A program made the translations under genes and the position numbers. Shown here one piece after another: positions 1 through 3,283 of a stretch of 64,000 nucleotides of DNA. The notes beneath the pieces were generated by a model that was not told the origin of the DNA, did not search any database, and saw nothing but the letters and a program-made list of their open reading frames with translations. Source of the DNA: Gemmatimonadota bacterium (lineage in GTDB: Bacteria > Gemmatimonadota > Gemmatimonadetes > Longimicrobiales > Gaopeijiaceae); contig PWLA01000262.1 in the NCBI GenBank assembly GCA_003559555.1, forward strand, positions 1 through 64,000, written 5' to 3'. Each line of letters begins with the position of its first letter. Position 1 is the first letter of the stretch.

Positions 1-1402
1 CCAGATTCCGGTGCGCCTGAGGCGGTGTGAGGGATTCGCCCACGGCCCGCAGATACAGGGCCTCCGCCGCCGCGGCCTCCCCCCGCTCTTCCAGGACCAC
101 CCCCAGGTTCACCAGGATGGGCCCCGACCAGGGGTGGTGGGTAAGCCCCTCCCGTCCCAGCCGCAGCGCCTCGTCCTCGTGGCCGGCCATGGCCGCCGCC
201 AGGATGCTGTAGGCGTAGAAGAGGGGAGGCAGCTCGGAGCCGTCCGTCTCGCTCGCGGCCGCCCGGCACCCCCGGAATTCGTCCAGGGCTTCGTCCACCC
301 GCCCGTTCTTCACCAGCGCCACTCCCCGGGCCAGACGGAGATCCGCCTCCCGGCCTTCGGGTGGCGTGGCGGCCTCCAGTGCCTCCAGTGCCTCCTGGGC
401 ACGATCCAGGCGCTCCAGCGCCAGCGCACGATTCCGGAGCCGGGAGTAGGAGGCGCCCCCCACATCGATGGCCCGGTCCAGGAGCTCCAGGCTCTCCTGG
501 TCCCTGCCGTCCCGGAGGGCGATGACCGCCAGTCGGTCCAGGGCCTCGACCTGTCCCGGGTCCTCTTCCAGGCAAGCCTTCAGCTCCCGCTCGGCGTCCT
601 GGTACATCTCGGTGCCGTAGAAGGCCCGGCCCAGCTCCAGGTGCTGCTTCGCCTCCGATGCCGTCTCGGCCGGTTCCGCCACCTCCTCCCGGCCCTCGCC
701 AGCGGATCGGACCCATCCCTCCCGGATCATCTCGTAGATGTTGCGTGCCACCTCGAACTGCACCATCCCCGAATCCCGGACGATCCGGTGGACCGTGCGC
801 TGGCCATCCAGCAAGCCCAGGACACGTTCCTGCTGGGGTGACAGCTCGACCTCCGGATCGTTGCGGGGATCGCGGGCCACCTGGAAGATCATGGAGAGGG
901 AGGGGATCTTCTCGCGGATCTGCGTCCACTCGTCCACGCGGCGGGCCCCCTCCAGGAGGAGGTTCTCTGCCGGGATGGCCACCTTGGTCGGAATGGCCTC
1001 GTCCGGGGATTCGCCGGTGCGGAAGTGGAACGAACCCTTCTCCCAGGCGAAGAGCTCGTAGACCGCCTCCTCCACCTCGATCCGGGCAAAGCGCTCCAGG
1101 TCGGAAGGGGAGAGGTCGCCCCGATCCACCAGGAGCCGGGTGTAGTGCGTCCCCGTGTCATCGTCCCGGGCCCGGGCTTCGGCCATGGCCTCCTCCGATA
1201 CGGCGTCGTTGCGAACCAGGAGCTCGCCCAGGCGCTCGCGTCGGTTCAGCACGGTGGCGTGCACCACCACACCGTCCTCGAAATAGACGTGTCCGAAGTT
1301 GGAACGATCCGTCACCGAGAGACGGCCCGTCTTCCGGCCCATGGCCAGAAGCTGGCAGATGTCCGCCAGACCAACGTCCTGAAGCTTTCCCTCAATCGCC
1401 AT
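1..1402 (-). CDS. DUF4388 and TPR-repeat protein (C-terminus cut by window edge)
   Basis: The reading frame is open from an ATG at 1402 to the window edge, so about 467 residues are visible and the C-terminus is missing. Residues 1-110 have the DUF4388 pattern: a start 'MAIEGKLQDVGLADICQLL', then 'KTGRLSV' near 24-30 and 'FEDGVVVHA' near 41-49. DUF4388 is found in regulatory and motility proteins of Myxococcota and relatives. A middle region (about 165-232) looks like a small helical or winged fold, and from about 250 onward TPR-like helical pairs follow ('AKQHLELGRAFY', 'ALDRLAVIALRDG'). No enzymatic motif or signal peptide is visible, so a cytoplasmic scaffold role is inferred. It lies 48 bases downstream of the tandem DnaA-like gene and is probably cotranscribed with it. 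Confidence 0.8.
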   Translation of the reverse strand, partial: MAIEGKLQDVGLADICQLLAMGRKTGRLSVTDRSNFGHVYFEDGVVVHATVLNRRERLGELLVRNDAVSEEAMAEARARDDDTGTHYTRLLVDRGDLSPSDLERFARIEVEEAVYELFAWEKGSFHFRTGESPDEAIPTKVAIPAENLLLEGARRVDEWTQIREKIPSLSMIFQVARDPRNDPEVELSPQQERVLGLLDGQRTVHRIVRDSGMVQFEVARNIYEMIREGWVRSAGEGREEVAEPAETASEAKQHLELGRAFYGTEMYQDAERELKACLEEDPGQVEALDRLAVIALRDGRDQESLELLDRAIDVGGASYSRLRNRALALERLDRAQEALEALEAATPPEGREADLRLARGVALVKNGRVDEALDEFRGCRAAASETDGSELPPLFYAYSILAAAMAGHEDEALRLGREGLTHHPWSGPILVNLGVVLEERGEAAAAEALYLRAVGESLTPPQAHRNL

Positions 1403-1450: not shown

Positions 1451-3283
1451 TCAGAAGTCCTCCACCACCCGATCGTCCACCGAGGGCCAGTCCCATACCA
1501 CCCGCTCCCGGGAGGGGGTCCATGGCTTGTCGTCGCCATCTTCGTCTTCCGGGGGACCCTCGGGCTCCCGGGAGCGGTCGGTCCTTCGCCGAGCTCGTCC
1601 GACGCCTGCCAGCTCCTTGAGAGCGGCCAGGTCATCCATCTCGTCGGCTGGCACCACGACCTCGTCATCCAGGGAACCGGTCGCCAGAACCGGCTCGTCC
1701 TCGGGCTCGGGCCGCCGTTCCGTGACCAGATCGTCGGGGAGGGGGTCGTCGCCCAGTTCCACCACCAAGCCCCCTTCGAAGCGGGAGCGGAGGCGGTCAT
1801 CCAATTGCTCCATCTCGGAGGGAAGCCGGTCCGAAGCCAGAAAGATCCTGGCATCGCGGCGTCTCAGCGCCTCGAAGAGGTGGAAGAACTCCTCCTGGGC
1901 CCGTTCGGTCACCGTGAGGCGCTCCAGTCCGTGCAGGAGGAGCACCTCCACCGTCCACCAGCGCTCCCGCCAGGCCCCGGCCACACCCTCCGAGATGGCA
2001 TCCACGAACTCGTTGGAGAAGGCCTCCACCGAGATGAGGGCCACTCGAGCCTCCGGAGCTCGGCTCCGATGCGTTCGTCCCACCGCCTCCAGAAAGATCC
2101 GGGCTCGATGAGGGTCCGCCGAGTGCACGTACAGCGGATTGTAGTCCGGGCGCTCGGCGGTAAGGAGCCGGTCGGCAGCCCGCTGGGCCAGCGCCGGCAC
2201 ATGGGCCTCGAGCTCTGAGAGATCCGGTCCCGGAGGAACGTCGGCGAAGGGGCGTGCCCGCTCTCGCGCCGACGCCAGGAGCGACTCCGACTCGTCCAGG
2301 CGACCCGGATCCCGAAGGAGGGTGGCTGCCGCCTCGGGCCAGGGGTTGCCCAGCTCCTCCAGCTCACGGGCGATCTCCCGACTCCGCTCCAGGTTGGCGG
2401 AATACCGCTCCAGCGCCTTCTCCCATCCCTCGGGCTCCTGGTCCCCCTCGAGCATTCGGCTCAGGCTTCGGACCACGAATCCCTCCGCCTCGGCTTCTTC
2501 CACCATCCGGCGGAGCCGTCGGCGCCACTGGGGCTCCTCCGGCTCGTCTGGAGCCTCCAGGTGGGCCTGGGGAAGACCACCCACCGCCTCCGGAAGCTCT
2601 TCCACCGTCACGGCCCGGTCCTCCAGCTCCTGCAGGACCAGGACCCGATTCAGGGCGCCCTGGAGCTCCCGAACGTTCCGGAAGGCCGAACGGGCCAGCA
2701 CCTCGGCCACGCCCGGTGCCAGTTCGGCGCCCCGGTCCCTGGCCTTCCGCCTCACGATGGCCACCCGGGTCTCCAGGTCCGGAGGCCCCAGGTCCACGAT
2801 GAGACCTCCCGAGAAGCGGGAGAGGAGCCGGGCGTCCAGATCCTCCATGTCGGCGGGGGGGCGGTCCGAGGCCAGAGCCACCTGCCCGCCCCTGGACGTG
2901 ATCCCGTCCAGGGTCCGTAGAAGCATCTCCTGGGCCTGTTTCTGGCCGGCCAGAAACTGCACGTCGTCCAGGAGGAGGATGTCCAGGGACGCGTAGCGGG
3001 CCTCCAGCTCGATCCCCTGGCCCCGTTCCAGCGCCTCCGTCAGCTCACCCAGGAACACCTCCAGAGGCTGCAGCACCACCTCCCGCTCCGGATCCTGCCG
3101 GAGGGCATGGTGGGCGATCGCCGTGAGGATGTGGGACTTCCCCAGACCGGAGGCGGAATACATGAAGAGGGGGTTGTAGCTCCGACCGGGATGCTCGGCC
3201 ACACGGCGTGCGGCGGCGCTGGCCAGACGGTTGGCCGGCCCCACCACAAAGCTGTCGAAGGTCATCCGCGGGTCGAAGTTCAT
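1451..3283 (-). CDS. Tandem DnaA-type AAA+ protein, second module degenerate, no domain IV
   Basis: I chose the ATG at 3283 because AGGAGA lies about ten bases upstream; the frame could extend to 3382 but that part looks non-coding. The protein has 610 residues. Module 1 (about 8-235) resembles the DnaA AAA+ domain: 'YNPLFMYSASGLGKSH' at 36-51 with Lys49/Ser50, Walker B 'LLLDDVQF' at 103-110, 'ASD' sensor 138-140, and 'NVRELQGALN' at 203-212. The first P-loop glycine is replaced by Ser43. A charged helical linker follows (250-350). Module 2 (about 375-512) repeats the pattern, but the Walker A site reads 'VHSADPHRARIF' and the Walker B site 'LLLHGLERL', so it should not bind or hydrolyse ATP. 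The C-terminus is acidic and disordered, with no DnaA domain IV helix-turn-helix. It is therefore not the replication initiator. Its function is unknown; an Hda-like or scaffold role is possible. Confidence 0.85.
   Translation of the reverse strand: MNFDPRMTFDSFVVGPANRLASAAARRVAEHPGRSYNPLFMYSASGLGKSHILTAIAHHALRQDPEREVVLQPLEVFLGELTEALERGQGIELEARYASLDILLLDDVQFLAGQKQAQEMLLRTLDGITSRGGQVALASDRPPADMEDLDARLLSRFSGGLIVDLGPPDLETRVAIVRRKARDRGAELAPGVAEVLARSAFRNVRELQGALNRVLVLQELEDRAVTVEELPEAVGGLPQAHLEAPDEPEEPQWRRRLRRMVEEAEAEGFVVRSLSRMLEGDQEPEGWEKALERYSANLERSREIARELEELGNPWPEAAATLLRDPGRLDESESLLASARERARPFADVPPGPDLSELEAHVPALAQRAADRLLTAERPDYNPLYVHSADPHRARIFLEAVGRTHRSRAPEARVALISVEAFSNEFVDAISEGVAGAWRERWWTVEVLLLHGLERLTVTERAQEEFFHLFEALRRRDARIFLASDRLPSEMEQLDDRLRSRFEGGLVVELGDDPLPDDLVTERRPEPEDEPVLATGSLDDEVVVPADEMDDLAALKELAGVGRARRRTDRSREPEGPPEDEDGDDKPWTPSRERVVWDWPSVDDRVVEDF

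Follow-up and report, generated by a model that had tools for sequence, protein, structure and literature searches.

A tandem DnaA-type AAA+ protein family associated by gene context with MglA, chemosensory and DUF4388 genes in Gemmatimonadota

The window, that is, the whole 64,000-nucleotide stretch of DNA analyzed, carries on its minus strand a gene (P0001) that runs from an ATG at 3283 to a stop codon at 1451–1453 and encodes a product of 610 amino acids. A gene for a protein combining DUF4388 with TPRs begins 48 bp past this stop codon, in the downstream direction. The features of the two genes are as follows:

1451..3283, minus strand: tandem DnaA-type AAA+ protein gene, stop included (coding part 1454–3283)
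2792..3274, minus strand: module 1, alpha-beta AAA+ base, residues 4–164, catalytically complete by motif (Pfam Bac_DnaA, 167.9 bits; top PDB match, B. subtilis DnaA)
3134..3157, minus strand: module 1 Walker A, SASGLGKS, residues 43–50
2963..2977, minus strand: module 1 Walker B, LLLDD, residues 103–107
2582..2791, minus strand: module 1 lid, residues 165–234, with sensor 2 NVREL at residues 203–207
2246..2533, minus strand: middle helical domain, residues 251–346, present in all architectures of the protein family
1745..2230, minus strand: module 2, residues 352–513, DnaA domain IIIa fold with neither ATP site nor lid
2096..2128, minus strand: module 2 degenerate Walker A, VHSADPHRARI, residues 386–396
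1955..1984, minus strand: module 2 VAGAWRERWW, residues 434–443
1922..1945, minus strand: module 2 degenerate Walker B, VLLLHGLE, residues 447–454
1763..1801, minus strand: module 2 box VII segment with the invariant R497 and R501 (putative finger arginines)
1529..1744, minus strand: acidic linker, residues 514–585, mostly disordered (pLDDT below 50 over most of it)
1454..1528, minus strand: C-terminal peptide, residues 586–610, containing WTPSRERVVWDWPSVDDRVVEDF, conserved at the extreme protein end in all architectures
2..1402, minus strand: DUF4388-TPR partner gene, with DUF4388 at about 926–1393 plus TPRs, cut by the contig end

An earlier note on this stretch, made from the letters alone, had proposed two DnaA-type AAA+ modules, the second of them stripped of its ATPase residues, and both parts of that description held. 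All the motifs it quoted were located: in module 1, GLGKS with K49/S50, LLLDDVQF at residues 103–110 and NVRELQGALN at 203–212, and in module 2, the fold landmarks YNPLYVHSAD at 381–390 and ASDRLPSEMEQLDDRLRSRF at 483–502. The Pfam model Bac_DnaA was found twice, module 2 alone reaching 103.9 bits (2.0e-29), so that both modules lie well above its cut-off of 23. Module 2 has no GK[ST], no Walker B acidic pair (LLLHGLE is found instead) and no lid or sensor 2. When compared alone with the solved structures, it matched only DnaA chains (1.1e-25). Residues 370–515, on which the note had made its reading depend, were modeled with an AAA+ fold: module 2 on its own gave a mean AlphaFold pLDDT of 96.1 and was superimposed on domain III of B. 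subtilis DnaA (8bv3) with a TM of 0.86, an rmsd of 1.6 Å and 36% identity, and in the Foldseek ranking DnaA domain III came first, followed by Hda and then by IstB and DnaC-like folds. The fold ends at about residue 513, after the alpha-beta part, and the chain beyond is mostly disordered. With an AAA+ fold predicted and the Walker A and B motifs gone, module 2 is an apparent AAA+ pseudo-ATPase. The model of the whole protein, built by AlphaFold on 20 family members, had a pLDDT of 82 overall and of about 95 across module 2, with residues 522–549 and 555–586 disordered. Three features had escaped the earlier reading, namely the retained R497 and R501, the helical domain at residues 251–346 and the conserved C-terminal peptide of about 25 residues.

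Both modules are of the DnaA type by profile, tree and fold, and module 1 retains the Walker A and B motifs, box VII and sensor 2 of DnaA domain III. The tandem protein differs from DnaA in having two modules, a new middle domain and the C-terminal peptide, while domain I and the DNA-binding domain IV are absent. The lack of domain IV, already pointed out from the letters, agrees with the profiles: no Pfam match to the DnaA C-terminal domain was obtained in the protein, and the best TIGR00362 stretch in it spans profile positions 103–335 of 437, against 1–437 for the orthodox DnaA of the same genome. The latter is a separate gene (G000:C287), followed by dnaN, and one orthodox DnaA was found in each of the 15 relatives checked. 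Besides these two, no further proteins above the Bac_DnaA cut-off were found in the window's genome. Hda/HdaA is likewise a DnaA-group AAA+ protein without domain IV. It differs from the tandem protein, which scores 111.5 bits against the Hda model (TIGR03420), below the cut-off of 194.8, has two modules and a signaling gene context, and shows, by eye, no Hda-type clamp-binding motif at its N-terminus (MNFDPRMTFDSF). Membership in Hda was rejected on the score and the gene context. By the tests run, the tandem proteins form an AAA+ family derived from DnaA but belonging neither to DnaA nor to Hda.

A search for the same architecture across Gemmatimonadota, which the earlier note had recommended, was carried out with a profile of the middle domain, and the family was found in 235 of the 395 genomes drawn across the phylum, representing 100 of 138 genera; the protein was also common among 37 relatives examined. 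The families are referred to here by working numbers, f1 to f9, the genome of the window being in f1. Two-module forms occur in f1, f2 and f4 to f6. Both modules are complete in f4, f5 and f6, where each of the two carries Walker A, Walker B and a lid in most members; in f2, the Walker A of module 2 is present in five of six members. The proteins of f3 and f9 have about 400 amino acids and module 1 only, and the single module of f3 additionally lacks sensor 2 and part of box VII. The Walker A of module 1 is retained in every member read, in all families. A scan of one genome per species yielded 42 confirmed loci, all titled Gemmatimonadetes, Gemmatimonadales or Gemmatimonas, by means of a single 8-residue pattern that distant relatives could escape; in a wider alignment, no stretch was conserved enough for a pattern scan.

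In a tree of 81 base domains, modules 1, modules 2 and DnaA were each separated from the rest by a single branch (SH-aLRT 99, 95 and 97, respectively), and the two modules grouped together against DnaA (SH-aLRT 97). Both modules thus derive from a single duplication of a DnaA-like module, early in Gemmatimonadota and before the families split, and f3 and f9 have lost module 2. One f1 locus (L083, in G160) has a middle-domain match with no recognizable module 2 in the stretch read, the family being otherwise two-module.

The pairing of an active module with a pseudo-ATPase, which the earlier note had inferred from one protein, is conserved in f1. In 33 of 33 distinct f1 species, module 2 has lost the Walker A and the acidic pair, and in the same 33, despite this loss, R497, R501 and the segment VAGAWRERW are identical. 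Between close f1 pairs, dN/dS was 0.06–0.24 for module 2 versus 0.03–0.27 for module 1. Because the two ranges are equally low, the dead module 2 is under ordinary purifying selection. Chance or a frame artefact was rejected as the source of module 2, given the Bac_DnaA scores, the structure matches, the confident model and the dN/dS values.

The surroundings of the gene are those of a signaling cluster. Outside f1, the gene order is largely fixed: CheY, CheA, CheC, a TPR protein of about 900 amino acids, a short DUF4388 protein, a TPR-roadblock protein, an MglB-like protein, MglA and then the tandem gene, which is followed by DUF4388-TPR, CheR, CheD, CheB, CheW, a TPR protein and a peptidase. 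By tblastn, MglA was found upstream of the tandem gene in 31 of 32 non-f1 loci, the exception being a contig of 3.2 kb, and in most of them its match starts about 0.6 kb ahead of that of the tandem gene. The MglB-like gene was found, also by tblastn, in 31 of the 32, and CheA in 25 of them within the stretch read. The DUF4388-TPR gene lies downstream of the tandem gene in all 41 loci, window included (tblastn). The cluster MglA matches M. xanthus MglA in the PDB (1.3e-77), and the MglB-like protein matches MglB (2e-11). This conserved context fits one of the two roles that the earlier note had offered, that of a new signaling ATPase.

Around the tandem gene of f1, the che and mgl genes have disappeared in 9 of 9 loci, and the order left is rluD or other upstream genes, the tandem gene, DUF4388-TPR and the peptidase. 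In the window itself, the DUF4388-TPR gene alone remains of the cluster. No CheA match was obtained in the window's genome (90% complete) or in the single-contig f1 genome G008. Since the window's genome has no CheA match and there is no MglA at the locus, the pathway in that genome is reduced or rewired. One f1 locus (L039) has, 464 bp ahead of the tandem gene, an MglB-like stretch that is an apparent remnant of the ancestral cluster. Another MglA gene adjoins dnaX-ybaB-recR-like genes in f1 (L162, L163), also where the cluster MglA is gone, and may or may not be a partner of the f1 tandem protein.

The loss of the cluster raises the alternative that the f1 protein is a relic on its way out, its module 2 merely degenerating. 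The absence of the tandem gene from many f1 genomes and the long stem branch of f1 module 2 (1.14 changes per site) are in line with such decay, as is the emptied neighborhood. However, the frames are open in the f1 species read, the residues listed above are invariant in all 33, and module 2 is as constrained as module 1. Decay was rejected on the dN/dS and the residue invariance; the selection test largely refutes it, and we regard it as very improbable.

The DUF4388-TPR protein is, in turn, the constant partner, as indicated by co-loss in 37 genomes: the tandem gene and any DUF4388 were both present in 29, both absent in seven and discordant in one (Fisher p = 8e-7, n = 37, kinship not corrected). 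This pattern also bears on the other role proposed in the earlier note, that the protein caps or regulates DnaA filaments. As an Hda-type regulator, it would present the module 2 arginines in trans to ATP-DnaA, bringing about hydrolysis or filament capping and tying replication to signaling. The fold and the arginines are shared with DnaA and Hda, the finger arginines have been retained in a module with no ATP site, and no Hda was found in the window's genome by the Bac_DnaA cut-off test. Even so, the conserved neighbors are MglA, Che and DUF4388 genes and not replication genes, the tandem gene is missing from many genomes that have DnaA, and it is lost along with the DUF4388-TPR gene and not with a replication gene. 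The failure of the Hda model, with no N-terminal clamp-binding motif seen, and the two complete ATPases of other families also speak against it. The filament role is thus unsupported, and we consider an Hda-type function quite improbable.

As for the output of the pathway, we take DUF4388 to be the PATAN domain. In five genomes (G001:C205; G008:C1:808681-811846; G013:C105; G016:C54; G021:C2), a further DUF4388 gene lies no more than about 2 kb from a gene of the pilT family and shares its strand. The best pilT score was at least 480 bits in 28 of 29 carriers of the tandem gene versus two of eight non-carriers, a suggestive co-occurrence at a threshold that was set after seeing the data. Neighborhoods of MglA and PATAN genes are on record (PMC4316618), and the cyanobacterial PATAN protein PixE has been proposed to act on PilB1 (reviewed in PMC7690835), so type IV pili would be the end point to which our partner gene, with its DUF4388, leads. 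In contrast to the cyanobacterial proteins, the partner here combines DUF4388 with TPRs, and its gene is paired with that of a DnaA-type ATPase. A working analogue is offered by M. xanthus, in which PilB is brought to the pole by a TPR protein acting with MglA, and MglA and MglB form a polarity module with SgmX, FrzS and SopA (PMC11580455). Similarly, most of the Gemmatimonadota families read encode the tandem family together with MglA, an MglB-like protein, a large TPR protein and chemosensory genes. No DnaA-type AAA+ protein was seen in the M. xanthus account as consulted, and the large TPR protein is a possible relative of SgmX. In the ancestral cluster, the TPR protein of about 900 amino acids sits between CheC and DUF4388 (L094, L098).

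Outside the two modules, the middle helical domain gave no convincing relative when compared with Pfam and the PDB, just weak scattered matches. The C-terminal peptide has the rough form REKVVWxWPxxxxRLIEE. In 44 of 45 proteins, the spacing between its second tryptophan and the chain end hardly varies, and 42 of the 45 have an acidic end, whatever the architecture. Because the peptide closes a disordered tail and the gene adjoins that of a TPR protein, a docking role is suggested.

Taken together, these observations make it fairly probable that the tandem protein is not a replication factor but a DnaA-derived, ATP-switched assembly factor or scaffold of a polarity pathway composed of the small GTPase MglA, MglB, CheA/C/R/D/B/W and DUF4388-TPR proteins. 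Positioning or gating of type IV pilus motors is the most likely task, a step that draws on the gene context and on the equation of DUF4388 with PATAN. In DnaA, the ATP of one subunit is reached by box VII arginines of its neighbor, and clamp loaders contain a subunit that is ATP-dead yet contributes a finger arginine. By analogy, module 1 would bind ATP, and the f1 module 2 would pack on that ATP, in the same or a second molecule, its box VII arginines reaching module 1 and completing one composite site; a built-in dimer of the two modules, as first imagined in the earlier note, is plausible. Assembly would then stop at a small complex, as with clamp-loader delta-prime, which works in a like manner (an ATP-dead AAA+ module keeping a finger arginine for its neighbor) and belongs to another AAA+ family and context, the role given here to module 2 being a proposed one. 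Whether the DUF4388-TPR protein can be held by the middle domain or the C-terminal peptide would depend on the ATP state, and the pilus motor ATPases would receive the signal through this partner. An arrangement of two modules is not required in all families, since in f3 the Che/Mgl cluster is found with a one-module protein.

Module 1 might instead hydrolyze ATP as a DnaC/IstB-like remodeler, loading, unloading or pulling apart an MglA-MglB complex or a pilus motor ATPase, with no scaffold function. Among AAA+ folds, DnaC, DnaI and IstB come closest once DnaA and Hda are set aside, and module 1 retains its Walker A and B almost throughout, single-module forms included. Yet f3 has lost sensor 2 and kept Walker A, which suits ATP binding over obligatory hydrolysis, and no pore-loop or helicase-binding element was identified, so we find remodeling unlikely. 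Returning to the ATP-switched scaffold, its evolutionary extension is offered more tentatively, as an idea that may well prove wrong: an ATPase module of a replication initiator would have been recruited as the AAA+ component of a Ras-like GTPase/chemosensory polarity pathway controlling type IV pili, and half of the protein would, in one family, have become a dedicated arginine-finger donor, turning a filament-forming ATPase into a closed nucleotide switch.

Replication is the role for which DnaA-type AAA+ modules are known. In Gemmatimonadota, one such lineage appears to have been captured by a signaling pathway before the sampled families diverged and kept in most genera sampled, adding to the MglA/PATAN/chemosensory network an ATPase that was not found described in the literature searched. 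The domains are of known kinds; no description was found there of the tandem family, its placement among MglA, Che and DUF4388 genes or its stepwise loss of ATPase motifs. Searches joining DUF4388 with DnaA, DUF4388 with MglA, or MglA with roadblock and AAA+ returned nothing, nor did a wider one for DnaA paralogues, and DUF4388 alone returned one unrelated paper. The living families show each stage, from two working ATP sites through one dead module to a lost module, and these natural forms make the use of a catalytically dead AAA+ module testable by comparison.

The tandem architecture also calls for caution in annotation. The window protein scores 353.7 bits against TIGR00362, the DnaA equivalog model of NCBI (cut-off 343.9), and members of f2 and f5 score 420–513 bits. 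They pass just because the two modules add up, those of the window protein giving 256.5 and 103.3 bits alone, and public records may name tandem members (the window protein; L015, L090, L091) DnaA.
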